A stretch of 49,356 bases of DNA from Candidatus Woesearchaeota archaeon (lineage in GTDB: Archaea; Nanobdellota; Nanobdellia; Woesearchaeales; GW2011-AR9), in contig JAGVYE010000049.1 of NCBI GenBank assembly GCA_018303445.1, positions 1-49,356 on the forward strand, written 5' to 3'. The notes under the pieces were generated by a model. The model made no database searches and had not been told where the DNA came from. It was given only the letters and a program-made list of their open reading frames with translations. Of this stretch, positions 6,392 through 39,854 are shown one piece after another. The translations under genes were made by a program, and so were the position numbers. Within the stretch, counting starts at the first letter, position 1. Each line of letters opens with the position of its first letter.

Positions 6392-6392
6392 G

Positions 6393-7100: not shown

Positions 7101-7127
7101 ATGAAAAATAAAGGTTAATGAAAAACA

Positions 7128-8430: not shown

Positions 8431-8439
8431 TAAGTAGTG

Positions 8440-8462: not shown

Positions 8463-8464
8463 AG

Positions 8465-9667: not shown

Positions 9668-9672
9668 TTAAA

Positions 9673-11250: not shown

Positions 11251-11255
11251 TAAAA

Positions 11256-22286: not shown

Positions 22287-23399
22287 ATGATGAAAAGAGG
22301 CTTATTATATCTACTTATAATAGCGTTTTTTGTCTTTTTTATTCGTTCTACTGTCGCTCAAACAGGCTGTTTCCTTTATGAAGGAAGCCCTTTCTATTGT
22401 CAAGAAATATCCCCTGTTCAGGCTGATCAGGAATGTAGCTTTTCTGACGATTGCCTACTTTCCAGAGTTTTTCTGGAAAACCAGCGTTGTGAAATGCAGG
22501 CTTCTTGCGAAAAAATTCTCTGCAAAAGTTCCTGCCAAAAGGAATTCATTGCCCGCTGTGTCGCTGGCGGAGTTCCTGTCGGGAAAGAGCAAGAATGGTG
22601 TTCACCAGGCTGTTGCCAAATTCCCGGAAGCAATTGCGAGTTTAAAGGAAATAAATGGTTGTGTGAAATCAGCGTTTTGAATAGTGGAAAAAGTACCTTT
22701 CAGTTTACTCCCATGAACCAGGAGCAATGTTTTACTCATTGCCAAACCCCAGCACCTTTGACGACTGTAGAACAAGTTGTGAAAGCGTCTTCTATAATTT
22801 CTTCCCCTCCTCTAGTTATCAATCAGTCTTCTCGCAATGGATCTAGAACATTAGAAACAAGAGCGTTAAAAAATAATAATTCAGAATCGCCTTTTCTCAT
22901 TTTTCTCTTAATATTTATCGCTCTTTTTCTCATTTTTCTCTTTTATGTTTTGTTACGGAAGCTGGATTTAAAAAATAAAAGAAGATTTCATTTCACAGTA
23001 AGACGGGAGTTTCCTTTTCCCAGAATTTTTTCTCCTTTTTCTTCTAATCCGGAAGTTCAACAGCATCTCCGAAAGATACGGGAACAACATGATCATAAAT
23101 CAAAGGAAAATCAACGAGAATATCTCTTAGCAAAGTTTGGGAAGGACACAAACTTAAAATATCGGGTTGAAAGTGAAGAGTTCCGGCGCTTGAGGCACTT
23201 AGTAAAATATTATGGAAAGCAGCAAAAATCATTAACAAAGGAGGAAAAGAACCTCTTTAGGCGTCTTGAAGAGGTGATCCATCCTCAACAATCTCCTTCG
23301 CTGGGAAGCAATGGGAAGGAAATGAAAGTGCAGAAAACCACTGCAGAAGAACGGAGAAAAATTTTCTCTCGTTTGGAGCAACTAAGCTCCCAAAAATAG
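22287..23399 (+). CDS. Cysteine-rich surface protein with single TM and cytoplasmic tail (short paralog)
   Basis: 370 residues. Signal peptide (about 1-25, ending TVAQT), an extracellular module with 16 cysteines (about 26-155), a Ser/Thr/Asn-rich stretch, one transmembrane segment (about 205-227) and a basic cytoplasmic tail of about 140 residues ending IFSRLEQLS. The order and spacing of the 16 cysteines match the N-terminal module of the giant protein encoded next, and the tails are also similar, so the two are paralogs. A role in the same envelope structure is likely. I recognise no named family. Confidence 0.8.
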   Translation: MMKRGLLYLLIIAFFVFFIRSTVAQTGCFLYEGSPFYCQEISPVQADQECSFSDDCLLSRVFLENQRCEMQASCEKILCKSSCQKEFIARCVAGGVPVGKEQEWCSPGCCQIPGSNCEFKGNKWLCEISVLNSGKSTFQFTPMNQEQCFTHCQTPAPLTTVEQVVKASSIISSPPLVINQSSRNGSRTLETRALKNNNSESPFLIFLLIFIALFLIFLFYVLLRKLDLKNKRRFHFTVRREFPFPRIFSPFSSNPEVQQHLRKIREQHDHKSKENQREYLLAKFGKDTNLKYRVESEEFRRLRHLVKYYGKQQKSLTKEEKNLFRRLEEVIHPQQSPSLGSNGKEMKVQKTTAEERRKIFSRLEQLSSQK

Positions 23400-23418
23400 T
23401 GTCTCTTATTCTCGGAAG

Positions 23419-23429
23419 CTTTATAAACG
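23419..23429 (+). promoter_or_regulatory. TATA box of the giant surface protein gene
   Basis: CTTTATAAACG lies about 32 nt upstream of the ATG at 23456. This supports that start rather than an in-frame GTG at 23399 and suggests an internal promoter in the cluster. Confidence 0.45.
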
Positions 23430-23455
23430 TTAAGAATTTTATTTATACCCAGAGT

Positions 23456-26400
23456 ATGAAACGACAAAAAAGAGGTTTTTTAGTAGAGGTAGTTTTATTT
23501 CTCTTAGTTTTAAGTGCTTTGGTTAGCGGTCAAACAATTAGTGGCAGAGGATGTTATACTTTCTTAGAATCAAATCTTTATTGCCAGCAACTAGAAGCAG
23601 GAGAAGTGCAAGCTGATTGTCGTTCTTTCCCAAATTGTGATGCTTCTCAAGAATTTGTTCCTGGCTCTGATTGTTCTGATGTTCCGGAGTGTGAAATGAT
23701 TACTTGTAATGTCGATTGTCAGGAATATCCTTTCGGAAAATGTCAGCAGTTGGGTCTGGATCAAGGTGGTCCGGCAGGGCAGCCAGTAAGTGATGCCGAG
23801 TATAATCTTTGGTGCAGTGAAGGCTGTTGTACTTTTCCTTTATCGATAACGGGAAATACGTTCTGCCAGTTTCGCTTAAATAACTATGCTTGTGCGTTAC
23901 GTGCGCAACAATCCGGGGTGCAAAATCCTACTTTTGTTACAGGAGTGTCAGTTGAACAATGTTTAAATACAATTTGCAACGCAGGAGTACAGTTTGGAAC
24001 AGTACAAGGTGTTATTAAGAGTTCTGAGGGGGGTCATCTCGCCAGTGCCACCATAACACTCGAAGGAAAAGGAATGGAAACAGTTTCTCAAGCGGATGGG
24101 CGATATTTTTTTCCCCAGCTCACTCCAGGTACGTATCAATTTCGTGTTACCGTTCTTCAGCATTTACCTGCCAGCGTTACAATTTCTCTTAATCCTGGAG
24201 AGCAAAAAGAACTAAACTTTACATTGCAGATGATAACTGGTACGGGGCAAATTTCAGGAGCAGTTTCAACTTCGGGCCGAAATCTCGAAGGCGTTACTGT
24301 TTCTTGGGAAGGGATTACTCGAGGACAGACCCTTACGAATGCAAATGGACAGTTTACAATCCGTGATTTACCCCCTGGTGAATATGTTTTTAAAGCTAGT
24401 AAAATTGGTTATGTGCAAAAAGAGCAGCGTCGCAACATTGTGGCAGGCGATGCGATTTCAAATTTTGATTTTAGTCTTACCCCGGTAGCTTTTCAAGGAG
24501 TTCAAGGGGCTGTTTATATGGATTCAAACATGAATCAGCGTTTTGATGAAAGTATTGACCAACCTCTTCCAGCCTCCAGCATCTACATTGATGCACGATT
24601 TCGGGGCTTTTCAAAACATCCAGATGGATCTTTTTCTATAGCCCTAGATAAGGGAGGAGATCATATGATCAAAGCTGTTTATGGAACGTACACTTCTGAA
24701 GAACTACCTTTTGTGGTTGTACAAGGGCAAAGTGCAGGCCCTTATGTCCTCTTTTTAACAGAGCTTAAAGGCGAATGTTCAGAATCCGGCACAGAGAAGA
24801 ACGTAGAGCAATTTTCTCTTCTTCATGTTCCTGGAAAGGAGGTGATGCGTCTAGAATGGCGAAAACCATGTTTAGAAGTTTTAGGATATGAAATTGTCAA
24901 GAAGAAAAATGGTATCTTGGAAATGTCTTTTTCTGCGTCACACACTCAAAATACCTTTTTTGACGACCGGGTAAATTGGGGCGAGTCTTATAGCTATGAA
25001 ATCGTTGCTTTTTACGATAACAATAGGCGATCGCCAGTACCTACAGTCCAAACCATGACCTTAGGCGATGCTCGTTGCGAAAAATATTATCATGATGATA
25101 CGGGATGGGAATCTTTTTGCCTTACAGAAGATCGCAAGAAAGTTTTTACATGCAGTGATCAAAATCAGTTACAAGCGAGAGACTGTTCTGCGCTTGATAC
25201 AACTGGCAGTGCGCATTTTTGCGCAAGAACAAGTCCACGCGCTGCTGATTGTAAGGATAGTGGTATTTGTTCACAGCTCGATGCCGAACCTTTCGGGCTG
25301 TACCATACGAAAGATGGGTGTTATGGAACGAGTGCGCCTGAGAGGGGAAAGGCTGTAAATTTTTGTTACTTTGACGCAACACGTACGATTGTAGATGCCT
25401 GCAGCAGTTGTGCAACAATAAAAAACTGCTTTGAGTATCAGAGTAAAGAAGCCTGTGAAATAAACAGTTGTTTAGGAACCTCTTGTTTGTGGATAGACAG
25501 TGCTGGCAATAGTCAAGATGTTCCTCTGGTTGACTATAGTGTTTTATTTCCCGGCTTGCAAATTCCACAAACAGTTACAAGAGAAACAGGAACTGGGTAT
25601 TGCGTAGAAGAAGAATATGAGAAAGACGACATGTGCGCGTTATGTAGTCCAAATGGAGAATTGTTTGAAAATTATTATTGCACTGCCCAAGTGTGTGCAA
25701 ACCTAGGGCGATGTTTCTCTAATCCTACTTCTGAGGGATTGCCTTTGAGTTTCTGCCAAGCCTGCGGAGCTATGCCCACACGTGAAAATAATTGTTATGC
25801 CTACAATACCGAATTAGAATGTACCAGTGGGCGGCCCATCAGTATGGAAAAAAGCGTTCTTACCTTATCTTTAGATCAATGTGAGTGGGGAAGGTGTGCC
25901 TGGGACAATCCCGACGGGATGGGCAGTTGTTTTAAAGATGGAGATGCCAATGGAAAAGATGATTGTGCTGATGCGGCATTTAGCGATGCACAAAAAGCGG
26001 CTTGCCGTATTGATAACAGCGCCCCACAAACAACACTGGTAACAGAAGATATCCCCGTGATCTCAACTGCATCAGAGAAAGTTAAATTCCGTGGAAATGA
26101 TGCTGCACATGAAGATAAAAAGCAGCAGAGCGCGTTGCGGACTTTATACTATTGTTTACTGAGCAGTGAAGCACCAGAAGAGTGTACACCGGAGAGTTTC
26201 ATAGAATTTCCATTTCCAGGGAAAACAAGTGATGAAATGATTGAACTTAATCTTCTTGCTTCCCCTTTTCTTCAAGGAAAGCAAATCCCTGGCGAAACTT
26301 ATACCGTGCGCTTCTATTCTAAGGATTTCTTTTATAATCAAGAAAAAGTGCAAACAGCTTCTATATTTATTGATAATGCTCCTCCTTCTTTTTCAATAAA

Positions 26401-29400
26401 AAACACAACACAAATAGTTACTGATATGGTAGACTTCACGGTTTTCTTAGATGAAGTCAACGAGCCCATGAGCTGCAATTTTGCCATGAAACCAATTTTG
26501 CCTGCTGGCGATTCCCAAGTGAAGCAAGCAACACGTGAACAGCTCGAGAAAAAAGTTACTTTTAGTGGATTGAAAGGGGTAATTTATGATCTTAACGTCA
26601 CCTGCCGTGATGATCATAATAATATAAACTCGCAACGGCAGCGTTTTACATTCGACTTAGAACAAGATATCGAAATTATCTCCCCGCCATTTTATGGAGC
26701 AGTTAAAGAAACAAATGTGATTTTTGAAATAAAGACAAAAGTAGGGGCAAGCTGTGAGTTATACACAACAGCGGATAATCAGCGCGTCGCAGTTTTTGAG
26801 ATTCTCACAGAAGATGGTAAAACACATCGCACCACCCCTATTCCAGGTTTTATTGAACGTGAGTATGCTGGCGAGTATAAAGTACTTTGTAATGAATTAC
26901 TCAGCAATGAGCCATTTGAAGATTTTTTCCATTTTCGTGTTGACTTCACTCCTCCTGAGACACAAATCGTATTGAAGGAAGGTTCCCGCGAAGTTAAACC
27001 TACTGCTTATGGCTGGAAAGAGTTCTTTATTAAGGGAGTAACAGTTGATCTTGTTTGCAAGAAAGAAGGGTTTGATTGTGATAAAGCTTTTTATTGTCTA
27101 GGAGAAGGATGTGAAGTGGTTTCAAAGAATGACAATTATAAAGAATTTACCGAAGTACTCCACTTTAATACGTCAACGGCGATTTGCTATTTTTCTACCG
27201 ACGTTGCGAAGAATAAAGTCTATAATCCGTTTTGCGGAATGATCAAAATAGAAGGGTATGGTGTCCAGCTAGAGGAACCATTGAGGCATTATTTTAATGA
27301 AGAGCAGTGGGGAGTCAGTGCTACGCCCATTTTTGAGTTGGAATTTTCTACAAGGATTCCTACAACCGAATGCCGGTTTGACTTTACGGAAAAATTCGAC
27401 TATGCTTCTTTGCCAAAACATAAAATTCTCAGACCACAGGGAGCAAATGTTTACCGACTAGAAGAATTCCCCGCAAGCGTCTTCACAGTCTATCCTCAAG
27501 ATGGAGGGGTAAAAGAAATTTATGTTCGTTGTGAAAGCGGGGGGGAAATAGGCCCAATGCAAAAAATTAATCTTGAATATGATCCCACGCCGCCTGAAAT
27601 TGATGAGGCGGCAGCTGAACCAAAAATTGTCGTTGAAGGAATTAATACTCAACTCTTTGTTAAAACTGATGATAAAACTCTTTGTCGTTACAGTGATAAT
27701 TCTGAAGGGATAGGAAGCAGGGAATATAATTCTATGGAGAGACCTTTCCCTGATGAGCAGAAACGAGTTCTTCATCGTGCTCATGAAGAGATATTTACAA
27801 TTAGTTTTGTCGGCGCTAAAAAAGAATATAAATTAAATGTACAATGCAAAAATGCCGCGGGAAATTTATCTGAAGTTAAAGAAATAGTCTTTACTGTCGA
27901 TTATTCGCAGGTAGGAAATATCGTCTCCATTTCTCCTCAAGGAGGGTTATTTAAAGAAACAAAAATCCCTTTCTCAGTGCAAACAACTCACAAGGCTTTC
28001 TGTGAGTATCGCATCAATGACACTTTTATTCCTTTTAGCCAAGGGGCTGACACGAGAAGTCACTCTACTCTCTTTCAGGCTCTTTTGGAAAAAGAGTACA
28101 AAATTCCTCTACGCTGCACACTTGCAGACAGAAAAGCAGAAAGCGAGATTCGCTTTACAGTAGATAGAACAGCTCCAGTTATTACCCGCGTTGATGATGG
28201 AAATTATACCTGCGGCGGCGATTTTATTTCGGTCTTTGTCACTCACCCTAACGAAAGTTCTATTGCTTCCTATCGCTATGAGTTATATGAGATAGGAGAA
28301 GATAAATCACGCTTAGTTATAGCTTTACCTTCAACTCGAAATACAACGATAGCTGGCTCGGGCAGTTCTAGTGGTCGCTCCGGTTCTTCTGCCACTTCTT
28401 CAAGTATTTTCACATCAACGCTAAGAGGGTCTTCAGTAAGTCCTAAAGGGACGCTTATAACGAGCCAAATTGTTGATGCTACTCAGCCGTTAAAAATTCT
28501 TACTTCTACATTAAAAGAGAATTATACTTATAAGGTGAAAGTTTTGGCTCAAGATAATGCTGGTAATACGGGGCAATTTGCTGAAAGTGATGGGGTGACG
28601 GTTGTTTCGAAGAACTTTACTGCCTGTACGCAGCAACAGGATCGCCCAGCAGGTGGTCCGGTGGTTGAATTCAGCATCGACGACGCTTCTTGTACTTCTC
28701 TTTCAGTACAATTGGAATGCAAAGATAGTATCGGATGCAAAGATATTAAAATAGGTCAGCATGGAACGTCTACCATTTGTAATGCCACGACACCATATAC
28801 CAGTTCTCCTCTAACCTTTACGAAAACAAGTTTCCTTTGTTATCGTGTAGAAAATAACGCTGGGAAAAATGGGACTCAAATAAAAAAAATCACCTTTCCT
28901 GATGCTGATGGAGATGGAGTTACAGATCGCTGTGATAAATGTACGGCCACAGCGGCCGGAAAACGCACTGATGAAGAAGGTTGTGCTACGGGAGACGCTC
29001 CTCCTGACAAGCCAAAACAGGATACTGATACGGATGGACTTCCTGATTATTGGGAGCGTATTTATAATTCCATTGTTTGCGCTTTAAATGAAGGCTCGGC
29101 TGATTCTGATCAGGATGGCGTTTCTGACAATGAAGAAGATTATGATAATGATAAAGCAACAAATTATCAGGAGTATCAGTCACGGACGGATCCTTGTTCA
29201 GCAGAAGAAACGCCTCGTAAAAAACCTATAGAAGATGAAAAACTAAAAAGAGGGATTGAATTTCCAGAAATCCCCGGTGATGGGGGAAAATCTCCCCTGT
29301 TGGCTTGGATTCTTTTGGGATTGGGAATTTTACTTGTTTTTGGCGGAAGTGGTTATTTGATTTATTATTATAAGCAAACTCCCACAGCGCAACAAACACG

Positions 29401-29845
29401 TTCTGGCCAACCCATTTCCTCTCGACTTTTAAGTTCACCTCAACAAACAGCGTCAACATCTTCAGGAACTTCTTTTGTTGAAACGTGGCGTCAGAAGTTT
29501 GCTGATTATAAAAAAACAAAAGCAGATAAGGAAAAGGAAAAACAACGCCGTACGGTATTTAGCAGTTTTAACCGGGAATCGGCGTCTATACCTCATGTGG
29601 AGAAAGCTTTGAGTAAAAAAGGCGATGAGTTATCACGTCTTCATGAATTGGCACATCATTATGCGGAAAATAAGGAGATCATTAAGCCTGGTTTGCGTCA
29701 GGAAGAGAAAAGTATCTTTGGCAAGTTGGAAGGCATTGCTCAGCAAACTAAAGATAAGGACATTTCTGAAATAGTGGGCAAGGCTGAGGCAAAAGATATT
29801 TTCTCTCGATTAAAAGAACTAAGCAAGAAGAGAAAAGGGAAATAA
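23456..29845 (+). CDS. Giant modular surface protein (2129 residues)
   Basis: Order of parts: signal peptide (1-28); 16-cysteine module (about 29-175) shared with the preceding protein; two carboxypeptidase-regulatory-like beta domains (about 183-350, e.g. ADGRYFFPQLTPGTYQF) and a third related one; a fibronectin III-like domain (about 440-525); cysteine-rich modules (to about 850); a long run of Ig-like domains with DxxPP linkers (about 850-1690); a Gly/Ser-rich linker (about 1633-1652); thrombospondin type 3-like calcium repeats (DADGDGVTDRCD, DTDTDGLPDYW, DSDQDGVSDNEED; about 1811-1918); one TM (about 1946-1971); and a charged cytoplasmic tail ending IFSRLKELS. Probably an adhesin or envelope stalk. 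The frame is uninterrupted. Confidence 0.85.
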   Translation: MKRQKRGFLVEVVLFLLVLSALVSGQTISGRGCYTFLESNLYCQQLEAGEVQADCRSFPNCDASQEFVPGSDCSDVPECEMITCNVDCQEYPFGKCQQLGLDQGGPAGQPVSDAEYNLWCSEGCCTFPLSITGNTFCQFRLNNYACALRAQQSGVQNPTFVTGVSVEQCLNTICNAGVQFGTVQGVIKSSEGGHLASATITLEGKGMETVSQADGRYFFPQLTPGTYQFRVTVLQHLPASVTISLNPGEQKELNFTLQMITGTGQISGAVSTSGRNLEGVTVSWEGITRGQTLTNANGQFTIRDLPPGEYVFKASKIGYVQKEQRRNIVAGDAISNFDFSLTPVAFQGVQGAVYMDSNMNQRFDESIDQPLPASSIYIDARFRGFSKHPDGSFSIALDKGGDHMIKAVYGTYTSEELPFVVVQGQSAGPYVLFLTELKGECSESGTEKNVEQFSLLHVPGKEVMRLEWRKPCLEVLGYEIVKKKNGILEMSFSASHTQNTFFDDRVNWGESYSYEIVAFYDNNRRSPVPTVQTMTLGDARCEKYYHDDTGWESFCLTEDRKKVFTCSDQNQLQARDCSALDTTGSAHFCARTSPRAADCKDSGICSQLDAEPFGLYHTKDGCYGTSAPERGKAVNFCYFDATRTIVDACSSCATIKNCFEYQSKEACEINSCLGTSCLWIDSAGNSQDVPLVDYSVLFPGLQIPQTVTRETGTGYCVEEEYEKDDMCALCSPNGELFENYYCTAQVCANLGRCFSNPTSEGLPLSFCQACGAMPTRENNCYAYNTELECTSGRPISMEKSVLTLSLDQCEWGRCAWDNPDGMGSCFKDGDANGKDDCADAAFSDAQKAACRIDNSAPQTTLVTEDIPVISTASEKVKFRGNDAAHEDKKQQSALRTLYYCLLSSEAPEECTPESFIEFPFPGKTSDEMIELNLLASPFLQGKQIPGETYTVRFYSKDFFYNQEKVQTASIFIDNAPPSFSIKNTTQIVTDMVDFTVFLDEVNEPMSCNFAMKPILPAGDSQVKQATREQLEKKVTFSGLKGVIYDLNVTCRDDHNNINSQRQRFTFDLEQDIEIISPPFYGAVKETNVIFEIKTKVGASCELYTTADNQRVAVFEILTEDGKTHRTTPIPGFIEREYAGEYKVLCNELLSNEPFEDFFHFRVDFTPPETQIVLKEGSREVKPTAYGWKEFFIKGVTVDLVCKKEGFDCDKAFYCLGEGCEVVSKNDNYKEFTEVLHFNTSTAICYFSTDVAKNKVYNPFCGMIKIEGYGVQLEEPLRHYFNEEQWGVSATPIFELEFSTRIPTTECRFDFTEKFDYASLPKHKILRPQGANVYRLEEFPASVFTVYPQDGGVKEIYVRCESGGEIGPMQKINLEYDPTPPEIDEAAAEPKIVVEGINTQLFVKTDDKTLCRYSDNSEGIGSREYNSMERPFPDEQKRVLHRAHEEIFTISFVGAKKEYKLNVQCKNAAGNLSEVKEIVFTVDYSQVGNIVSISPQGGLFKETKIPFSVQTTHKAFCEYRINDTFIPFSQGADTRSHSTLFQALLEKEYKIPLRCTLADRKAESEIRFTVDRTAPVITRVDDGNYTCGGDFISVFVTHPNESSIASYRYELYEIGEDKSRLVIALPSTRNTTIAGSGSSSGRSGSSATSSSIFTSTLRGSSVSPKGTLITSQIVDATQPLKILTSTLKENYTYKVKVLAQDNAGNTGQFAESDGVTVVSKNFTACTQQQDRPAGGPVVEFSIDDASCTSLSVQLECKDSIGCKDIKIGQHGTSTICNATTPYTSSPLTFTKTSFLCYRVENNAGKNGTQIKKITFPDADGDGVTDRCDKCTATAAGKRTDEEGCATGDAPPDKPKQDTDTDGLPDYWERIYNSIVCALNEGSADSDQDGVSDNEEDYDNDKATNYQEYQSRTDPCSAEETPRKKPIEDEKLKRGIEFPEIPGDGGKSPLLAWILLGLGILLVFGGSGYLIYYYKQTPTAQQTRSGQPISSRLLSSPQQTASTSSGTSFVETWRQKFADYKKTKADKEKEKQRRTVFSSFNRESASIPHVEKALSKKGDELSRLHELAHHYAENKEIIKPGLRQEEKSIFGKLEGIAQQTKDKDISEIVGKAEAKDIFSRLKELSKKRKGK

Positions 29846-30363
29846 TGAGCGACAAACGAGCGATGGGAGTTGGACAAGTTTTCGTTTTTATCGTTGCCGC
29901 CATTACTTTTTCGTTAATCCTCATTTTTGGATACAGAGCAATCAGCAGTTTTTTAAAAAGCGGCGAAGAGGTAGAATTTGTCCAGTTTAAAACTGATGTT
30001 GAAGCTTCCATTCGTAAAATTTATACGGAATATGATTCCGTTCGTATTGAAAAGTTTCGCCTCCCGACAAAGTATAAACAAATTTGTTTTATTGATTTGG
30101 ACGTTTCTCCTTCTCCAGAACAACTGGCGGCATTATGCACAAAAGATGGTCGCGCCTGTACGGTATGGGAAGAATCACAAGGATATGATCTGGAAAATCA
30201 AAACGTTTTTCTTACCCCTCCTGAGCCCGTACAGATGAAAGTTTATAAAATAAAAATGGAGAATGGTTTTTTATGTTTGGATATTATTAACGGCAATTTT
30301 GAACTAGTTTTAGTTGGAAAAGGGGATCATACTGCTCTTTATAAACGTGAGGAGATAACATAA
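29845..30363 (+). CDS. Pilin-like single-pass protein 1
   Basis: 172 residues. The ATG overlaps the stop of the giant gene by one base (TAATG), so translation is coupled. The N-terminus RAMGVGQVFVFIVAAITFSL resembles a class III (archaeal type IV pilin-like) signal: small positive part, G-Q, then a long hydrophobic helix. The extracellular part (about 35-172) has four cysteines and is predicted beta-rich. No known family recognised. Confidence 0.7.
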   Translation: MSDKRAMGVGQVFVFIVAAITFSLILIFGYRAISSFLKSGEEVEFVQFKTDVEASIRKIYTEYDSVRIEKFRLPTKYKQICFIDLDVSPSPEQLAALCTKDGRACTVWEESQGYDLENQNVFLTPPEPVQMKVYKIKMENGFLCLDIINGNFELVLVGKGDHTALYKREEIT

Positions 30364-30394
30364 TACAAATAAATCTTGGAAGTATCAAAAAACA

Positions 30395-31489: not shown

Positions 31490-31522
31490 TATGATAATAT
31501 GAGGAAGTTATGAGGAAGTAAC

Positions 31523-32032
31523 ATGAGAAAAGTCAGGATCACAACTTCAAAAGGACAGTCGCACATGACGGAAACAATTGCGATTCTCTTTATTTTTTTT
31601 GTTTTAGTGTTCTTCGGCATTCTTTTTTACTATAAATATTCTCAGGTATCACTAAAGCAGGAGAAAGAAGAGCTGCTCGGAAAAAGAGCCATCGAAACAA
31701 CATTGAAAGCGCTTTTTTTGCCCGAACTTATCTGCAGCAATGGGGAAGCAGAGCCTGAAGATAATTGCGTTGATATGCTTAAAGTGCGGCATGCTAATGT
31801 GACATTTCGATTACATAATCAAACTTATTTTGATCTTCTTTCTTATTCTAAAATATCAATCTATAAAGTATATCCTGAATCTGAAATTAAAGAACCATTT
31901 GTTTTATATGATAAACCAAAGCCAGATTGGGAAAAAAAAGAAGCAACGTATTTTGTCCTGACTTTACGTGATGAATTACAGGGCCAGGATAATTATGGTT
32001 TTGGTTATATAAAAGTGGAAGTGTATTCATGA
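31523..32032 (+). CDS. Pilin-like single-pass protein 3
   Basis: 169 residues. The N-terminus TTSKGQSHMTETIAILFIFF has the K-G-Q signature, a nearby Glu and a long hydrophobic helix (about 18-40). The remaining domain has two cysteines (ELICSNGE, DNCVD) and a beta-rich look. GAGGAAG precedes the ATG. It overlaps the next gene by 4 bases (ATGA). Confidence 0.7.
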   Translation: MRKVRITTSKGQSHMTETIAILFIFFVLVFFGILFYYKYSQVSLKQEKEELLGKRAIETTLKALFLPELICSNGEAEPEDNCVDMLKVRHANVTFRLHNQTYFDLLSYSKISIYKVYPESEIKEPFVLYDKPKPDWEKKEATYFVLTLRDELQGQDNYGFGYIKVEVYS

Positions 32033-32568
32033 ACAAAGCGCAAATGGAGATGGTGGGTTTAGTCGTGATTGTGATTATGCTTACGTTAGGAATGTTATTC
32101 TTAGCGATATTTGCCTTTAAAGAAGGAACAGAAAAGAAAGTTTTCACCAGGGAAGGGTTAGCATATAGCTCCATGAGCGCGGTTATGAAAACAACCATTG
32201 ATAGCAGCGTATGCGAAGGAAGCTTTCGTCCTAAGATTGGCCAGGAACTTCTGGAGGATTGTGCTCAAAATCACCAAGAATCGCCGAGTGGTTTTTCTTT
32301 GTATAAATGTAATGAGAAACATAGCTGTGTATTTTTACAGGAAATAATCGGCGAACTTCTTCAAGAGACGCTAGGAACATGGAATAAAAGGTATCAATTC
32401 AGATCGACTTTGATCCGTTCCAGCACATCTGAGCCAGAGGAGTTATTGAATATAGTGTCTGTAAAAGGCAATTGCCCTAAAACGAGGGAAAGGGATAGCT
32501 CTGGGATATTCCCCATCCAAGTGCGAAATGCGGGCCTGATCGAGAATGTTTTGTACCTTTGCGATTAA
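32029..32568 (+). CDS. Pilin-like single-pass protein 4
   Basis: 179 residues, coupled to the previous gene by an ATGA overlap. The short N-terminus MNKAQMEMVGLVVIVIML matches the pattern K-A-Q with Glu at +3 followed by a hydrophobic helix. The soluble part holds six cysteines (VCEG, DCAQ, KCNEKHSC, NCPK, LCD). Family not recognised. Confidence 0.7.
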   Translation: MNKAQMEMVGLVVIVIMLTLGMLFLAIFAFKEGTEKKVFTREGLAYSSMSAVMKTTIDSSVCEGSFRPKIGQELLEDCAQNHQESPSGFSLYKCNEKHSCVFLQEIIGELLQETLGTWNKRYQFRSTLIRSSTSEPEELLNIVSVKGNCPKTRERDSSGIFPIQVRNAGLIENVLYLCD

Positions 32569-32589
32569 AATCGGCTAAACTCTTCGCAA

Positions 32590-32602
32590 CCTTTATATAC
32601 CC
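32590..32602 (+). promoter_or_regulatory. Internal TATA box in the surface-protein cluster
   Basis: CCTTTATATACCC is a strong TATA element in an 83-bp gap. A leader of about 30 nt with GAGGTG (32640-32645) precedes the ATG at 32652, so a second transcription unit probably starts here. Confidence 0.6.
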
Positions 32603-32651
32603 TTTTTCTTTTTTAGATCTTTAGTATAAATTAAAAAACGAGGTGTCAAGG

Positions 32652-33008
32652 ATGGTGTCAAAAAAGGGGCAAAGCCTTTCTTTAAATGCAATAATTATCG
32701 CGGCATTAGCATTAATTGTATTAGTCGTCTTAGCCGTACTGTTCATAGGCAAAACTACGGATACGGCTGAGGGCGTGGAAAAAGCATCCGGAGAAGCATC
32801 ATTAGAATTAACGAAAATGAAAGTACGCTATGGCGATTGCCACCCGGCGGATTCCATGGAAAAGGATTTCCTTAAAGCTTATGCTGATTCGGCGACTGCT
32901 GATGAAAAAGATAGGGCAAAGCGAGATTTTCAAGAAATTGTTAATGATTGTAAGCGCTCCGATGAAAAAGCAACTTGTGATCAGACCAGCGGATGTAAAT
33001 GGCAATGA
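32652..33008 (+). CDS. Pilin-like single-pass protein 5
   Basis: 118 residues from the ATG at 32652, chosen because GAGGTG lies 6 nt upstream and the product then begins MVSKKGQSLSLNAIIIAALA, a textbook-looking class III-like signal with K-K-G-Q. The hydrophobic helix is followed by a charged helical region and a cysteine-containing C-terminus (DCHP, DCKR, TCDQTSGCKW). It overlaps the next gene. Confidence 0.7.
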   Translation: MVSKKGQSLSLNAIIIAALALIVLVVLAVLFIGKTTDTAEGVEKASGEASLELTKMKVRYGDCHPADSMEKDFLKAYADSATADEKDRAKRDFQEIVNDCKRSDEKATCDQTSGCKWQ

Positions 33009-33283
33009 GAATGAATAAAAAAGGAGGAAGCGAAATCTGGTGGATTATTGTCGTGGCCGTGGTAGCTTTGGTGGTGATGATCGTTTTAATCGTCATGTTT
33101 ACAGGAAGGAGTAATAGACTGGAGTTGGGTTTGTTGGACTGTGAGAGCAAAGGAGGAAGTTGCGGGTATCTTACAGTAGAAGATTGTCGTGATAATGGTA
33201 AAGGAACACCTTCCACGGCCTTTGAATGTAAAGATTCTCCTGATAAACCTTGTTGTTTTGGCACTAAGAAGAAGGAAACATGA
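33005..33283 (+). CDS. Small pilin-like protein 6
   Basis: About 92 residues. MNKKGGSEIWWIIVVAVVAL gives a K-K-G-G signature and a single hydrophobic helix. The short exposed part has six cysteines (LDCESKGGSCGY, EDCRD, ECKD, PCCFG), a compact disulfide-rich mini-domain. Start choices are ATG 33005 (ATGA overlap, listed), 33011 or 32999. Confidence 0.68.
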   Translation: MRMNKKGGSEIWWIIVVAVVALVVMIVLIVMFTGRSNRLELGLLDCESKGGSCGYLTVEDCRDNGKGTPSTAFECKDSPDKPCCFGTKKKET

Positions 33284-33293
33284 GGTTGCTGCT

Positions 33294-33440
33294 ATGGGGT
33301 GGAATAAGAAGGCAGCGGTTGGCGAAGGAGAGGGAATAAAGGAAAGCATTTCAATAATATTAATTATTATTATCGTTATCCTTATGGTTGCTTTTTTCTT
33401 GTATAAAATTATCTCACTCAAGAATTTGGCACCACCATGA
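33294..33440 (+). CDS. 48-residue single-TM microprotein A
   Basis: From ATG 33294, with GAGGT 7 nt upstream, it encodes 48 residues: a charged N-terminus (WNKKAAVGEGEGIKES) and one hydrophobic helix. The stop overlaps the next start as ATGA. Longer upstream in-frame extensions read through the previous gene and lack an SD. Tight packing in the operon supports a real gene. Confidence 0.6.
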   Translation: MGWNKKAAVGEGEGIKESISIILIIIIVILMVAFFLYKIISLKNLAPP

Positions 33441-33583
33441 ACAAAAAAGGGGAATTAACACTGGAACAAGTAGCCGTTTGGTTACTGATCATCCTCTTCA
33501 TTTTAGTGATGTTTTCCTTTATTTATTTTCTAGGAGGGAATTTTAAAGATCTTATTGGCCGAATAGGAGGGTTATTTGGATGA
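33437..33583 (+). CDS. 48-residue single-TM microprotein B
   Basis: From the ATG at 33437 to the TGA at 33581-33583 the product is 48 residues: MNKKGELTLEQVAVWLLIIL, then a short FKDLIGRIGGLFG tail. K-K-G-E with Glu at +5 is the canonical class III/type IV pilin arrangement. ATGA overlaps at both ends argue that it is translated. It is short enough to be missed by usual gene finders. Confidence 0.65.
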   Translation: MNKKGELTLEQVAVWLLIILFILVMFSFIYFLGGNFKDLIGRIGGLFG

Positions 33584-34374
33584 CCAAAACACTCGAAATC
33601 ATCGTGGTCTTTGTTCTAGTCATTATCGTCGTTCTTTCTATAGGTTGGTTCTCTTACAGACCAGAAGGAGGAGCTGTTTCAAAGATAACAAAGGCTATCC
33701 AAACTCTCATTGCTGGAGCGCCAAAAGTAACTTATGGAGAGAAGGAAATTACGGCCAGCAAACCGACACTGCAAAACCTAAGAAATGAACAAGAGATTAA
33801 GGAACTGCAGAAGACAATTCTCAAAATGAAAAGTTCTGTAAAAAAGTACTGTTTTGCGTCCTATGGTGGCTTTACACCATTTGAAGAAGAAGGCACTTCT
33901 ATAACAGCAAGGTATGATCAGAAAGATGATGAAACAACGTTTCAAATTTCTGGAGGAGTAGGTGGAAGACAACAGCTTAGGGATTTAGAATTTTCTATAA
34001 AAGAAATTGTCCCATGCGTCATTGCTGGAAGTTCTACCATAACTAAATCTTTTGAAGGCAGTTTTCTGAATACTAATTTGTGGGATGATAAAAGAAGCAA
34101 GATAGAACCTAATCATTATAATCCCGTTACGCAACTCATCATTAATCACGAAGGCATAAATTATGGCCAAGGCGTCCATGATTTTTTTGAAGACGGGGGA
34201 TATCTTTATACTCCGGATAACAAACATATTTGTTTTTTTCCAACTATTGATGGTACAAATAGCTGTCGGGTAAATACGGCAGAAGGATTAGATGACGATT
34301 GTTTAGGCGAAGCGGCAGGGAAGGAAAATAGTATTCCTGCCCAACTGCAAAAAGGAACGTTGCAAGAATGTTAA
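33580..34374 (+). CDS. Single-pass surface protein 7
   Basis: 264 residues with an N-terminal membrane helix (about 5-25) after a short MTKTLE start and no K-G-Q motif. A basic/helical linker (about 55-90) leads to a domain with cysteines (YCFASYGGFTPF, PCVI, ICFF, SCRV, DCLG, QEC). The motif KYCFASYGGF is similar in type to cysteine-containing segments elsewhere in the cluster. Coupled to genes on both sides. Function unknown. Confidence 0.65.
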   Translation: MTKTLEIIVVFVLVIIVVLSIGWFSYRPEGGAVSKITKAIQTLIAGAPKVTYGEKEITASKPTLQNLRNEQEIKELQKTILKMKSSVKKYCFASYGGFTPFEEEGTSITARYDQKDDETTFQISGGVGGRQQLRDLEFSIKEIVPCVIAGSSTITKSFEGSFLNTNLWDDKRSKIEPNHYNPVTQLIINHEGINYGQGVHDFFEDGGYLYTPDNKHICFFPTIDGTNSCRVNTAEGLDDDCLGEAAGKENSIPAQLQKGTLQEC

Positions 34375-35300
34375 AAATAAAATTTAACAAAAAAGGAATG
34401 GCAGCCTCTGAATTAGCGATTATTATCTTAGCTATAGTTGGATTTGGTATTCTTGCTCCGGCCATAAGTTATGCTCAACAGAGAGCAGAAGGAAAGTCGG
34501 AGGAAATTATCTGCCATAATAGCATTGCTTTTCGTTCCCTGAGCACGGTTAATTTTGCAGGACAGGATGTTAAAGTTGCACCTCGCCTCTGTAAAACGAT
34601 CGAAAAAGATGTTACTGGCTCCAGGGGAGAAATTAAAGATGAGATTGCTTACAAAATGGCTCGCTGCTGGTGGATGTTTAATGAAGGGCGACATGAAAAA
34701 GTGTTAGACAACGCCGCCGACATTTTACAATTTCTGGGGTGGTCAAGCACGGACAAACCTTGTTTTCTCTGTTATGATTTAAAGATTGATGAAAAGGAAA
34801 TTGCCGAGCCGTCTCAACAGTCTTTTATTCCCGCTGAAGAATTGTTTGAGTATATGTCTAAAAAAGAACATCGGCAGCTTAAAGATTGGAAGTATTTAGA
34901 TTATATCCAATATTACGGTGGGCCTGGAGAATTAGGAATTCTGGCAAAAATAGAGCCACAGAAACATTATGGGGTAGTTTTTTTACCGCGAACAACAGAT
35001 CGTGGTGAATTTTTGAATTGGGCAGACACAGTTATAGCAGGAACGGGAGTAGTTGCCGGAAGTGGCGCACTTGGTGTAGCTTCTGTTGTTGGTGCTGGGG
35101 CGTGTTTTGCAACTATAGGCTGCGGCGTTGCTGTCGTTATCGGGGGAGCAACAGCAGCCGCGTCGGCGTTTTATATTGGAGCTCACCAGCTTAATGAAAT
35201 CCAGGCTTTCTTTGATCAAGATCGTCCTCTCAGTTCAGTTATACTAACTGATCTTAAAAATGTGGAAGCACGCTGTCAAAAAGATTTGTCAGGTGAATAG
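34368..35300 (+). CDS. Pilin-like protein 8 with C-terminal Gly/Ala-rich hydrophobic hairpin
   Basis: 310 residues. NKKGMAASELAIIILAIVGF has G before M-A-A-S-E, i.e. Glu at +5 as in type IV pilins. The middle domain has several cysteines (EIICHNS, RLCKT, ARCWWMF, CFLCYD). Near residues 222-275 a Gly/Ala/Val-rich hydrophobic stretch could form a second membrane hairpin, unlike the neighbours. It overlaps its upstream gene by 7 bases. Confidence 0.65.
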   Translation: MLKIKFNKKGMAASELAIIILAIVGFGILAPAISYAQQRAEGKSEEIICHNSIAFRSLSTVNFAGQDVKVAPRLCKTIEKDVTGSRGEIKDEIAYKMARCWWMFNEGRHEKVLDNAADILQFLGWSSTDKPCFLCYDLKIDEKEIAEPSQQSFIPAEELFEYMSKKEHRQLKDWKYLDYIQYYGGPGELGILAKIEPQKHYGVVFLPRTTDRGEFLNWADTVIAGTGVVAGSGALGVASVVGAGACFATIGCGVAVVIGGATAAASAFYIGAHQLNEIQAFFDQDRPLSSVILTDLKNVEARCQKDLSGE

Positions 35301-35306
35301 AAAATC

Positions 35307-36689
35307 ATGGTCATGAAAAAAAAAGGCGAGTCCTCAGTATTTACGATCATAATATGGGGGGCAATCCTTTTGATTACAGGGTTTTTAGTGATCGCTTTTT
35401 TTGGACGTGGCTTTTCAAGGTCGACAGAATTTTTTGATGAGAAAATCGAGCATTTTGGCGACTGCGACGACGATAACGTTTTTAATGGAGATGATCGATG
35501 CCCTTGTTTGAGTTCTCAAGGTTTTTTTTCAGAAAAAGTGAAATTATGGGGTTGTCCTGAAGAAACAAAAACAGAAAATGAGGCGGCAGACGAGGAAAAG
35601 CGTTGCACGCCGCAGCAATGTAAGAAAACTGAAGAAAAGAGGAAAGAAGCGAAAGAAGAAGAAAAGAAAGAATCAAAAGCCGACATCACCATTTCTCGTT
35701 TTGGAGCCACGAAAAATTTCCAGGATGGAAAATATCGTGAAGATCTTCAACAAAAAACTGAAAGCATCGTTCCGCTTGAGGTCGTAATCTCAAATATTGG
35801 AGAAGAAAATGTTGAGAAGCGAATTATGGTCTCGGTTAAAGTTTGTAATCCCCAAAAAATTCTTTGTATTCCTAAGAAAATGACGGTGCAAGGAACTTCC
35901 ATAGGTCAAGATGGTCTCCCCATAGAATCTCTCGATAAAGGCCGATCTCAAGGGCTGCTATTTTTCATAGAACTAGGCACGGAGGGAGATGCTTGTGATG
36001 GTGCAGGAGCAAGAGATTGTATTATTGAAATAAGTGCTACAAGTGATCTTCAGGAAAAGGAGGTTAAGAATAACAGGAAAGAAATTAATGCCATATTAAC
36101 CAGTCAACAATGGGTTTCTTCACTCTTTGAAAACATCAAAACTATCCACATTAAAGCCCAGGATGATGAGCCTGGGACGTATCCAATTCACCAGCTATGT
36201 AAAGGCTATATCGGTCGAAGCGATCTTCTCGGATATTGTCCCGCAGGAGATTCTTGCGAAGGTGATTTTCATTCTGACGAAAGTCCAGGATGGAAATATC
36301 ATGGCTGTTGGGCGGTAATTTCTGAAAAGCAAGAATTGCTTGGCAAGGAAGGAATTTCGGAATGCGGAGAGACCTTATCTCCAACAGGTTTCGTCATTAA
36401 TCAACTAGAACCAACGCCCATTAAGCGAGAAGGACAAGTAGGTTATTATTCTGATGATGATGACAAAAATCCTGAAAAACTTCTCACCCCGCAATTTACC
36501 TGGAAAGCGACAGTGGAAGGATCGCTTCTCTGTTCCGATAATGCAGAGAGTAAGATTATTAGGAAGGGCTTTGAAGAGCTGAAAAATGATAACTGGATCT
36601 TGTGCAATCCATTAGTGGAAGGTAAAATTGCTAAGCTTGTTAATGATCGAGAATTTTTGTGTCGTAATAATCAGTGGTATAAACGATGA
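35307..36689 (+). CDS. Pilin-like protein 9 (460 residues)
   Basis: The N-terminus MVMKKKGESSVFTIIIWGAI has K-K-G-E before a hydrophobic helix. After it come DCDDDNVFNGDDRCPC, which looks like a single TSP3-like calcium motif, a highly charged Lys/Glu helical spacer (about 92-125), a beta-rich domain, and a cysteine-rich C-terminal half. The Ca-motif recalls the repeats of the giant protein. Its stop overlaps the next start by 4 bases. Confidence 0.68.
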   Translation: MVMKKKGESSVFTIIIWGAILLITGFLVIAFFGRGFSRSTEFFDEKIEHFGDCDDDNVFNGDDRCPCLSSQGFFSEKVKLWGCPEETKTENEAADEEKRCTPQQCKKTEEKRKEAKEEEKKESKADITISRFGATKNFQDGKYREDLQQKTESIVPLEVVISNIGEENVEKRIMVSVKVCNPQKILCIPKKMTVQGTSIGQDGLPIESLDKGRSQGLLFFIELGTEGDACDGAGARDCIIEISATSDLQEKEVKNNRKEINAILTSQQWVSSLFENIKTIHIKAQDDEPGTYPIHQLCKGYIGRSDLLGYCPAGDSCEGDFHSDESPGWKYHGCWAVISEKQELLGKEGISECGETLSPTGFVINQLEPTPIKREGQVGYYSDDDDKNPEKLLTPQFTWKATVEGSLLCSDNAESKIIRKGFEELKNDNWILCNPLVEGKIAKLVNDREFLCRNNQWYKR

Positions 36690-37390
36690 AAAAAGCGAAT
36701 TTGACTCTAGGAGCAGTATTAGGCTTACTGATGGTTATTATCGTTTTTGTGCCGGCGATAATTCTTGCGGCAAAGCTTATTGGAGGGGGAGGAGGAAATC
36801 AAAATAACTTTGAAACTTTTATTTCTGATCTTGCGTCCATGAAAAATGTTTTGCCTGTGGAACGCAGGGCAACAGAAGCGATCCTTGCTAAAGAGTCAGC
36901 TTTCGTTTACTTTGAACCTGGACAGAAGTACGTCGGCATGGTCACAAAGAACTTGAAGCCATGTATTTCTTCAGCCTGTTCTTCACCACCCCTTCTCTTT
37001 GAGCGCCCTTCCAGTTGTGAGGAAGAGGCCTGTTTATGTTTCATTTATAAAATAAAAACGGAGATGAAAAATGATCCTTTTCTGATTAATCGTTACGAAG
37101 GTGAAGGCCTTTTTTACTATAAGATTACTACCATTAATCCAACATGCAGGAAGGTAGATTTTATTGCTCAATTTAAGAATTGCGGGGTAGGAACGCCGGT
37201 TACTCCAAATAATGCCTATCAGAAGGGTTTCACAAATTCTTGTCTCCATGGTTTTGTCATCGATCGGGAAATAGCTCCAAAAGTTCTTAAGGGGAATGTA
37301 TTAAGTGAAAATTATCCTTATTTTGATGCACCAAAACGCATTCCTTTCCAAATGCATAAAGAAGGAGAAACCATCGTCCTGGAGTATTAA
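36686..37390 (+). CDS. Single-pass surface protein 10
   Basis: 234 residues with an N-terminal membrane helix (about 7-31; LTLGAVLGLLMVIIVFVPAI) and a poly-Gly turn just after it. The exterior domain has paired cysteines (PCISSACSS, SCEEEACLCF, TCRK, NCGVG, SCLHGF). Coupled to neighbours by ATGA at its start. Family not recognised. Confidence 0.65.
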   Translation: MKKANLTLGAVLGLLMVIIVFVPAIILAAKLIGGGGGNQNNFETFISDLASMKNVLPVERRATEAILAKESAFVYFEPGQKYVGMVTKNLKPCISSACSSPPLLFERPSSCEEEACLCFIYKIKTEMKNDPFLINRYEGEGLFYYKITTINPTCRKVDFIAQFKNCGVGTPVTPNNAYQKGFTNSCLHGFVIDREIAPKVLKGNVLSENYPYFDAPKRIPFQMHKEGETIVLEY

Positions 37391-37392
37391 AG

Positions 37393-37794
37393 ATGGTCAC
37401 GGCGCGACAGTTTTTTTACTTATCTCAAGTACTGGCAGTTTTTGTTTTTGGCGTGGTTGCTCTCTCCATTGCTCAAGCACATGCCAAGTCTGATTTTGTG
37501 CTTAAAACTAATATTGCAGATGAGATCAAGATGATGGTTGATACGCTTGTTGCCGTGCCGGGAGAAGCTCTGGTTAAAGTACCTTATAATACTACTGATT
37601 ACAGCCTATTACTTACTTCTGAGAACATTGCCATATTCAAAAAGGGAGAAAATAAAGAGCAGTGGACAATTCGGCCTTTCTTCTTGCCAGAAGGCTACCA
37701 TGCTCAAGGTTCTTCTGTAGATCTCGGCAGGGTTTGTTTAGAGAAAAAGGGAAAGAGCATAACTTTACGAAGGTGTTTAGAAGATGAGCGATGA
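37393..37794 (+). CDS. Single-pass surface protein 11
   Basis: 133 residues. The N-terminal hydrophobic segment (about 12-29) is followed by AQAHAKSDF and could be either a membrane anchor or a cleavable signal peptide. The rest is beta-rich, and its cysteines are CLEKKG and RRCLED near the C-terminus. It starts 2 bases after the previous stop and overlaps the next gene by 11 bases. Confidence 0.6.
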   Translation: MVTARQFFYLSQVLAVFVFGVVALSIAQAHAKSDFVLKTNIADEIKMMVDTLVAVPGEALVKVPYNTTDYSLLLTSENIAIFKKGENKEQWTIRPFFLPEGYHAQGSSVDLGRVCLEKKGKSITLRRCLEDER

Positions 37795-38293
37795 TGATTC
37801 TTTTCTTATACCCCAGGAAATGTTCTTTTACATCATTGTGGTGATTATTTTTGCGGGGATGGTGCTTTTTTTAGCTTTTGGCATTGGTACTTTTAAAGGA
37901 AGGGTGGTGCAAACATCACCCCAATTACAGGCCGAACTTATTGCATTACGGTTTACAGGAATTCCAGAGTGTTTTGCGTATAAAGATGAACGAAGCATAG
38001 TGCGATCCGGCATCATTGATCCGCAGAAGTTTAGTCAAGATGTTTTAGATCGCTGTTATTACCATTTTCGCAAGGAAGGGTTTACGAGCTTTAATTTTCG
38101 GTTACAACTGCAGGGAGAAAATAAAGAATTGTTTACCAATAACTATAAAATTAACGATCGTGATGATTTCACTCTGGTAAAAGAAATACTTAAAAGAACT
38201 ACCCAAGGATTCGAAAAAGATTTATTGATTATATTTGTTCAGGAAAGAGTGGAGAGAACGACGGATGGAAAGAAAGAGGAGTTAAGAGCATGA
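37784..38293 (+). CDS. Single-pass surface protein 12
   Basis: 169 residues with an acidic N-terminus (MSDDDSFLIPQE) and one hydrophobic helix (about 14-34), then a soluble domain with two cysteines (PECFAY, DRCYYHF). The N-terminal charge is opposite to that of the K-G-Q members, so its processing may differ. It overlaps both neighbours (11 and 4 bases). Confidence 0.62.
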   Translation: MSDDDSFLIPQEMFFYIIVVIIFAGMVLFLAFGIGTFKGRVVQTSPQLQAELIALRFTGIPECFAYKDERSIVRSGIIDPQKFSQDVLDRCYYHFRKEGFTSFNFRLQLQGENKELFTNNYKINDRDDFTLVKEILKRTTQGFEKDLLIIFVQERVERTTDGKKEELRA

Positions 38294-38709
38294 TCTCGAC
38301 AAAAAAGGGGCAGTTGGGGAATGCAATTGATTTTTTGTATATTATAGTTGTAGGAATCGTTATCGCTCTTATCGTCTCCGTTAGTCTGTATGGGGTGGTG
38401 AGTTCAAGACAAAAAGCAGCTTTAGGCGAGATCGCAGAAGTTGACCGCATCAGCGCGGCAATCCAACACTTGCGGGGGCGATTATATGAAGGAGAGAATC
38501 TCGAAAAATTGAATTTAGACAAAGAAATTGCCTTAAGTCAAATACTTAAAGGCAAAATTGTAAAAGGTTGCGAAGATTATATAGATAAAAATGACTGCGA
38601 TATTGATGCTTTAGATCTTTATAACGAACCTACAATTAATACTTACTGCACTTGGGATGATAAAAGTAAGATCTGTTTAACTCAACATATCGTAGAAATG
38701 AAAGAATGA
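38290..38709 (+). CDS. Pilin-like single-pass protein 13
   Basis: 139 residues. The N-terminus ISTKKGQLGNAIDFLYIIVV has the K-K-G-Q signature and a long helix, followed by a helical segment (RISAAIQHLRGRLYEGENLE) and a small cysteine-bearing C-terminus (GCEDYIDKNDCD, YCTWDD, ICLTQ). Coupled by ATGA overlaps at both ends. Confidence 0.68.
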   Translation: MISTKKGQLGNAIDFLYIIVVGIVIALIVSVSLYGVVSSRQKAALGEIAEVDRISAAIQHLRGRLYEGENLEKLNLDKEIALSQILKGKIVKGCEDYIDKNDCDIDALDLYNEPTINTYCTWDDKSKICLTQHIVEMKE

Positions 38710-39854
38710 ACAACAAAGCTAGGGTTATTTGGTGGACTTTATTCATCCTCATCATCGCCTTTGGTATTTTCTTTTCTTCGACAGCTTTTGTGAAACAAAT
38801 TCCTAAAAGTGTAAAAGGGACATGGCAGACAGGCTTTCTTAAACATAACGTTTTACAAGCTGAACGGCAGCTTTTAGCGGATGAAGCGGTGGCAAGAAAT
38901 ATAGGCACAGCCTTGGTTTTAGAATTGGCGGGAAATGGTGGATTTAGGAAAGGAGAGACTTCCCGTTGCGGAAAAATACAAGGAGTTAATGCTTGGAATA
39001 GGAACGCGGAACTTTGTTTACCTGAAATAGAAGAGACTTTTTCTGCTTCTGCTCTGAAGAAGTTACAGGAAAAAATCCCTAACCGAAAATATACTGCTGT
39101 CGGCACTGATGCAAAATTTTTTTATGCTCTTGGGGCGAAGGAAGATATTAATTCAAACTATGGAGAATATATTTTTAATACTTCGATTTCGGCTGATATG
39201 GGTTATTCTTTCAGCGAATACAAGGTCCTTTTTACAGACGCTTTTGATCTTCTCGCGCAGTGTAATGAAGAGAAGAATCTCCAGTCCTGCCTGGAGAAAA
39301 ATCGCCGCGCTTACTGGCGTTTTACTGATTGCGAGAAAGAAGAATTTAAAATTCAAGAACGTCGTGTTGTTTTTTGTGTTAGAAGCCCTTCTTCCTCAAC
39401 GGTATATGACTATCAAGGGAAAGAAATTCCTGTAAAGTACTCCCTTACTTTGGATTTCACGCCAGAGAAGCCTTTTCCTATCGAAGAACTGGTTGTGGAA
39501 AAAGAAGGAATGGAGCTTTCTGTCCGCTTTCCACAAGACCCCTCAGCTGAGGGATATAAAATATATTACACTGATTGGGCAGGAGCTCCTGTAGCGGTGC
39601 AAAGAACACATAACCCAGCTGAGGTCTTTGAAACGAAAACGACAGGGTTTGTGGAAGTAAGACTACTCCATAATCCATTATTAGAGAACTGTGTCAAAGA
39701 GAAAATGGCGGGAGAAGTCTATCTATGTGAAGGAGAGATCTATTATCTGATTAAAGATTCTCAGATAATTTCAGATGAAACATATTATGTTGGCGTAACT
39801 TCTATTAAAGAGGAGAAAGAATCGGGTCTTACTACCTTTATTTTGGCTAAGTAG
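38706..39854 (+). CDS. Single-pass surface protein 14, last gene of the cluster
   Basis: 382 residues with an N-terminal membrane helix (about 7-28) after MNNKARVIW, a helical region, and a C-terminal part with a fibronectin III-like beta pattern (ELSVRFPQDPSAEGYKIYYT ... YYVGVTSIKEE). Cysteines occur throughout (RCGK, LCLPE, QCNEE, SCLEK, DCEKEE, FCVR, NCVKEK, LCEGE). It closes a run of plus-strand genes; a TATA-rich gap follows. Confidence 0.65.
   Translation: MNNKARVIWWTLFILIIAFGIFFSSTAFVKQIPKSVKGTWQTGFLKHNVLQAERQLLADEAVARNIGTALVLELAGNGGFRKGETSRCGKIQGVNAWNRNAELCLPEIEETFSASALKKLQEKIPNRKYTAVGTDAKFFYALGAKEDINSNYGEYIFNTSISADMGYSFSEYKVLFTDAFDLLAQCNEEKNLQSCLEKNRRAYWRFTDCEKEEFKIQERRVVFCVRSPSSSTVYDYQGKEIPVKYSLTLDFTPEKPFPIEELVVEKEGMELSVRFPQDPSAEGYKIYYTDWAGAPVAVQRTHNPAEVFETKTTGFVEVRLLHNPLLENCVKEKMAGEVYLCEGEIYYLIKDSQIISDETYYVGVTSIKEEKESGLTTFILAK

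Follow-up and report, generated by a model that had tools for sequence, protein, structure and literature searches.

A conserved cluster of pilin-like and cysteine-rich surface proteins in a Woesearchaeotal genome, a probable source of subunits for a type IV filament-like machine

The window considered here is the 49,356-nucleotide contig JAGVYE010000049.1 of a Candidatus Woesearchaeota archaeon (assembly GCA_018303445.1); it is the whole of contig C12 in a 54-contig archaeal genome of 1.22 Mb. Positions 22287-39854 hold a cluster of 18 genes, all on the plus strand and with most neighbours touching or overlapping; sixteen are larger genes (g1-g8 and g10-g17) and two are 48-codon micro-open reading frames (micro-ORFs; g9a and g9b). 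A previous reading, made from the sequence alone (the sequence-only reading), held that the cluster encodes almost only proteins with one N-terminal membrane helix, and indeed the main membrane element of 16 of the 18 is a single N-terminal hydrophobic helix; the exceptions are g1 and g2, which have an additional C-terminal membrane helix and a cytosolic tail. The cluster is real and conserved, and had not been assigned before. It probably supplies the pilins, minor pilins and adhesins of an archaeal machine of the type IV filament kind, one that is specific to this lineage and serves in adhesion or in contact between cells. This reading is built on the genes and their signals, on conserved cysteines and conserved gene order, on the presence of all core machine parts in the genome and on the co-occurrence of the subunits with one platform type.

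g1 (22287..23399) encodes a 370 amino acid (aa) protein with an N-terminal helix, a Cys-rich domain containing 16 Cys, a second membrane helix and a cytosolic tail. It is a miniature g2 without the long middle part, as the N-terminal domains of the two are homologous (phmmer E 4.5e-11), and is present in only 7 of 20 fetched relatives. g2 (23399..29845) is a 2148 aa giant that features an N-terminal helix, a Cys-rich domain, CarboxypepD_reg and Ig-like domains, DxDxDG repeats, and a C-terminal membrane helix followed by a cytosolic tail; it alone of the cluster is recognised by a Pfam scan (CarboxypepD_reg E 2.7e-29; Big_3_3 E 8e-6) and is presumed to be an adhesin or anchor. A phmmer search found the cytosolic tails of g1 and g2 in no other protein of the same genome.

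The next four genes encode the core pilin-like proteins: g3 (29845..30363; 172 aa) with a K-[KR]-[GA]-M..GQVF signal, g4 (30395..31489; 364 aa), which is the subunit detected most widely, g5 (31523..32032; 169 aa) with a KKGQ-type signal, and g6 (32029..32568; 179 aa) with six conserved Cys. The AlphaFold2 model of g5 (predicted local distance difference test score, pLDDT, of 90.8) features a 56-residue N-terminal helix (residues 9-64) followed by a β-sheet, and that of g4 (pLDDT 87.5) a 47-residue N-terminal helix, a β-domain and a C-terminal helical domain. The predicted topology of both proteins is pilin-like, short of a demonstrated known pilin fold.

Downstream lie two related small proteins, the Cys-containing, pilin-like g7 (32643..33008; 121 aa), which displays a KKGQ signal and four conserved Cys, and the Cys-rich, pilin-like g8 (32999..33283; 94 aa). 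These are followed by two 48 aa micro-pilins, g9a (33294..33440), which consists of a K-K-A signal and one helix and was read directly from the sequence, and g9b (33437..33583), which consists of MNKKGE and one helix and has ATGA overlaps with both g9a and g10. The nominal 83 aa ORF at 33189-33440 has no orthologue and was therefore dropped, the gene start being moved to 33294; the sequence-only reading's 17 consecutive, overlapping plus-strand genes keep their coordinates, strand and packing, and with the two micro-ORFs number 18. In relatives the gap between g8 and g10 also holds counterparts of about 40-55 aa, and the relatives of g9b form a 'KKGMEMWQ' family; no copy number is claimed for either micro-pilin, since recruitment of small ORFs by hidden Markov models drifts into the g7 and g8 families on iteration.

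The remaining eight genes are more varied. g10 (33580..34374; 264 aa) has one N-terminal helix and lacks the K-G signal; g11 (34368..35300; 310 aa) is pilin-like, with a KKGM signal and further hydrophobic stretches; g12 (35307..36689; 460 aa) has a KKKGE signal and 18 Cys, and many genomes have short relatives of it that are of the g7/g8 type. g13 (36686..37390; 234 aa) is pilin-like with a KKAN signal, and g14 (37393..37794; 133 aa) and g15 (37784..38293; 169 aa) each have one N-terminal helix, with a Cys pair in the latter. g16 (38290..38709; 139 aa) is pilin-like, contains a TKKGQ signal and four Cys, and has orthologues in five close relatives; g17 (38706..39854; 382 aa) has one N-terminal helix and eight Cys, and its start in relatives reads MN[KR]KG.

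Class III-like signals are enriched in the cluster, which the sequence-only reading had credited with at least nine signatures close to the class III/EppA-type signal. An explicit rule assigns them to 12 of the 18 cluster genes; of the 1212 other ORFs that reach 90 aa in the genome, which was read nearly to completion, it picks out 51 (Fisher p = 1.6e-12). The p-value is only indicative, as the rule was framed with the cluster already known and g2 is among the genes counted. Orthologues conserve the signal region: Q12 and E17 of g5 are invariant, as are Q5, E7 and G10 of g6. A further class III-like family of scattered proteins that start [GA]-[QE]-[IVL]-[TS]-[IL]-F-I-I is found in the same genome (L052, L067, L070, L094 and L164); in other orders of the class a gene of this type adjoins the giant and g3-g6.

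Cysteines are conserved in nearly every cluster family according to orthologue alignments, which agrees with the earlier remark that most of the proteins carry paired cysteines. Cys81 and Cys144 of g3 are present in 28/28 sequences, C87, C270 and C307 of g4 in 29/29, and all six Cys of g8 in 18/18; among the larger downstream proteins, the same holds for Cys 91, 146, 218 and 264 of g10 (12/12), Cys 75, 100, 132, 135 and 303 of g11 (16/16), Cys111 and Cys116 of g13 (16/16), Cys63 and Cys91 of g15 (11/12), and five of the eight Cys of g17 (11/11). The disulfide-forming system that was to be looked for elsewhere in the genome is present in the form of VKOR enzymes, which occur in 11 of 15 genomes tested, in all ten of family f1, and in three copies in the genome studied here.

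Relatives of g4 were found in 67 of 78 close genomes. A wider sample of 236 genomes from the phylum yielded them in 187, and the named matches are metagenome-assembled genomes of Ca. Woesearchaeota or Nanoarchaeota. Gene order, proposed as a check, is strongly conserved in Ca. Woesearchaeota, well past what chance would give: the 20 fetched relatives keep the g1-g17 order with some genes missing, inserted or moved, and g3-g4-g5-g6 follow one another at 58 of 80 named loci; at the remaining 22, g3 is undetected or a contig end cuts the locus, and a different order is seen in none. Apparent fusions of g2 with g3 in G055 (L044) and of g2 with g4 in G049 (L279) are artefacts of the runs of N that these long ORFs contain. 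Other orders of the class feature a shorter Cys-rich giant homologous to g2, then g3-g4-g5-g6, and lack most of g7-g17; because these orders keep the giant and g3-g6 without most of the rest, this may be the ancestral unit, to which the other genes would have been added in Woesearchaeota. The earlier picture of a multi-subunit envelope structure with large anchor proteins in a DPANN archaeon is thus borne out by pilin-like, Cys-rich and large anchored proteins in conserved order and by the identity of the named relatives. A literature search, with subscription papers and preprints outside its scope, found no paper on the cluster.

The sequence-only reading further stated that no ATPase, platform protein or peptidase lies in the window. 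Profile searches of the genome agree, as they place no T2SSE or A24 peptidase match there and give no T2SSF match at all; as a property of the system, the absence of an assembly motor is not supported, since ATPase, platform and prepilin peptidase are encoded elsewhere in the genome and are conserved in relatives, and a motorless system was rejected on this ground. The search for PilB and PilC homologs and a peptidase outside the cluster, which had been recommended, locates the first two on contig C14 and the peptidase on contig C38.

The sole T2SSE match of the genome is a divergent 762 aa ATPase on C14 (L064/L065), which scores above the cut-off; a long-type T2SSE ATPase is likewise above the cut-off in 20/20 genomes of a first panel, and nearly all genomes of a second panel, drawn from other orders, have a full-length ATPase profile match, those of G177 being shorter and weaker. 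The ATPase profile matches PDB structures of archaeal GspE (2oap), CpaF and FlaI; against the curated FlaI model the protein scores 126 bits where the FlaI/ArlI cut-off is 550, and archaellum membership was rejected on this basis. Beside the ATPase are genes for three related five-helix membrane proteins and two soluble helical proteins (G000:C14, contig positions 22181-25145); the same arrangement is found in most genomes examined, none of the five exceeds a Pfam cut-off, and they are putative accessory parts of the machine.

The platform is a protein of ~735 aa with 8-10 membrane helices, encoded by the gene next to the ATPase in G009, G058, G065 and G070; in the genome studied here it lies on the same contig as the ATPase (match L064:7395-9344, E 1.8e-300). 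Pfam T2SSF has no match in this protein, nor in any of ten family f1 genomes, so that a pilus platform would go unreported in routine annotation of the family. Aligned to T2SSF proteins of order-mates, it gives an hhalign E of 2.6e-6 and a probability of 88.7 over 117 columns; through this profile-profile match and its adjacency to the ATPase, it is identified as a putative PilC/TadC-type platform. With weak matches counted, it is found in 231 of 236 genomes. The platform ORF of the present genome (L064:7395-9413) is N-terminally shorter than its relatives, with an open frame of 678 aa versus 725-745 aa; this is possibly due to a frameshift, an assembly error or a later start. The A24 prepilin peptidase (L119:4958-5809; PF01478 E 8.8e-15) is the only one of its genome and is found in 19 of 20 first-panel genomes; two stand-alone pilin-like genes lie directly downstream of it.

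The cluster is linked to this motor by several lines of evidence, of which the class III signals are one. Nine of ten family f1 genomes contain one T2SSE match, so that this ATPase is usually the only one in the family, and the peptidase is single. g4 co-occurs with one platform type: 23 genomes of 12 families give weak and mostly partial platform matches (E 1e-37 to 1e-107), as would be expected for a split platform, and g4 was found in none of them. Of the 21 split-platform genomes tested for the neighbouring subunits, none gave a g6 match and only the distant relative G266 gave one for g5, a weak one; the absence is partly a matter of sensitivity, since G263, which has a known g5, was missed by the g5 search as well. 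The weak g5 match of G266 falls inside an array of small pilin-like genes (L302, 95-3162), most with 6-8 Cys, which lies ~6 kb from the motor ATPase; the g7, g8 and g12 profiles score best on proteins of this array (best E 5.7e-11), higher than on any protein of the present genome outside the window, and the similarity consists mostly of the spine helix and the cysteines.

Several observations weigh against the filament reading. Cluster and motor are never in one locus in the Woesearchaeal genomes examined, the co-occurrence of g4 with its platform type is confounded by phylogeny, and the ATPase is also present in genomes without g4-g6 and is therefore not exclusive to the cluster subunits. 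g10, g14, g15 and g17 have no clean signal in the genome studied here. Structure prediction of the pilin-like members, another suggested check, yields the long N-terminal helix and β-region for g4 and g5 but no significant PDB fold match for either in Foldseek.

If the cluster is a filament module, the prepilins would insert into the membrane through their class III signal, and the single A24 peptidase on C38 would trim the short, charged leader. The 762 aa PilB-type ATPase and the ~735 aa platform would then extract the subunits, at the expense of ATP, into a filament or short pseudopilus. g3-g6 together with the small subunits g7, g8, g9a and g9b may form its shaft or base; candidates for the shaft itself are the helix-only g9a and g9b, the small Cys-rich g7 and g8, or the stand-alone pilins on C38. 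g10-g17 would be minor or tip subunits held by disulfides, the larger Cys-braced ones being candidates for a cap or base, and g2, with its mini copy g1, would act as a membrane-anchored adhesin or a cell-wall collar. That the subunits use the C14 motor, form a filament and serve in adhesion is what we infer; adhesion or cell-cell contact is the most likely task, given the adhesin-like giant and the DPANN lifestyle.

The main rival, conceivable although unlikely, is a different use of the same machine: only a short piston would be made, to carry proteins, nucleic acids or nutrients across the envelope in the manner of a type II secretion or competence pseudopilus, with the giant Cys-rich proteins as outer channel or collar. 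The many different minor subunits would suit such a role, and so would a cluster in which no highly repeated major pilin is obvious; near-universality in the small genomes of the class also fits, being expected of a nutritional function. However, the domains of g2 are adhesin-like, and the micro-pilins and stand-alone pilin genes could serve as major subunits. A ComEC-type DNA channel was not found in 16/16 genomes, which rules out ComEC-type DNA uptake; as archaeal control genomes lack ComEC too, this absence excludes the bacterial DNA-uptake route only.

A more specific version of the filament reading, which must be considered improbable as it stands, takes the cluster and the class-wide divergent motor as what attaches Woesearchaeota and members of related orders to their hosts, equivalent in function to the attachment organelle of cultivated Nanobdellota. 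Helix-only micro-pilins of 48 residues would make up the shaft of this pilus or portal and minor pilins braced by disulfides its cap, and it would also include the giant adhesins in their anchored form. In Nanobdella aerobiophila and YN1, an attachment organelle with a cone, a portal and an intercellular filament at the contact with the host has been described by cryo-electron tomography only (PMC11104419, PMC11420986). g4-g6 were not found in G147 and G172, two single-contig genomes of another family, and the link to this organelle may therefore well be wrong; a role of the cluster in host contact may be entertained. Improbable too, finally, is a static envelope or S-layer-associated complex, in which pilin-like helices are not polymerised by the ATPase and the ectodomains, joined by disulfides, make up a patch of wall or a platform for adhesion round the giants: the separation of cluster and motor in Woesearchaeota, the members without a K-G signal, the heavy Cys conservation and the missing PDB match to a pilin fold favour it, but conserved class III signals, the spine-helix topology of g5, the finding that g4 strictly accompanies a single type of platform and the relatives of g7, g8 and g12 near the motor in G266 argue against it.

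Few groups of DPANN archaea are as diverse as the Woesearchaeota, of which, to our knowledge, no member has been cultured; the source organisms are tiny and probably host-dependent. A filament machine of this kind, near-universal at the cell surface and with a subunit list, an ATPase, a platform missed by Pfam and a peptidase, would be a concrete candidate for partner contact. Elsewhere in the window, replication genes lie together at 4361-14843: an MCM helicase (4361-6391), Cdc6/Orc1 (8465-9667), a DP1-like small subunit with OB and phosphoesterase domains (9673-11250), and a 1198 aa ORF (11247-14843) which may be the PolD large subunit.

Among the closest known systems are the Clade 1 archaeal type IV pili, described as the most complex of their kind: EppA is joined by two large DUF2341 proteins and by five or more minor pilins (Makarova et al. 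2016, PMC4858521); these EppA-dependent (Epd) pili occur in Methanococci, Methanobacteria and Thermococci (PMC4858521; PMC6668835), and Epd-like systems, in which major pilins are short, have been grouped with Tad (Denise et al. 2019, PMC6668835). The machine proposed here is similarly large and complex: it has a dedicated A24 peptidase, extra membrane proteins and stand-alone pilin genes, and its putative subunits include a number of minor pilins with class III signals, small major pilins and two big adhesins. It differs in that the cluster subunits match no Pfam or NCBIfam family; the giants carry CarboxypepD_reg and Ig domains rather than DUF2341, which the Pfam scan did not find in g1 or g2; one ~735 aa platform stands in place of two TadC genes; the motor is encoded apart from the subunits; and three related five-helix membrane proteins and two soluble helical proteins are found beside the motor. 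One ATPase clade is known from nanoarchaea whose pilins could not be identified (PMC4858521). Thermoproteales type IV pili with Cys-rich subunits (clades 4B, 4D, 4E and 4G) are alike by description, in that some of them have multiple conserved Cys in nearly all components and co-encode large surface proteins (Makarova et al. 2016, PMC4858521); they belong to a different lineage.

With the archaellum the system shares a homologous ATPase superfamily, and in both, soluble helical accessory proteins are encoded next to the motor, whereas the cluster has no recognisable archaellin and the ATPase falls far below the FlaI cut-off. In bacterial type IV pili, minor pilin-PilY1 operons combine the genes for minor pilins with that for a giant adhesin, at a distance from the motor. 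The cluster displays this same separation of its putative minor pilins and presumed giant adhesin from the motor; it has many more subunits, and the Pfam scan found no PilY1-type domain in g1 or g2. To the range of archaeal type IV filaments it would add an architecture of a single large platform, micro-pilins, Cys-braced minor pilins and giant anchors.

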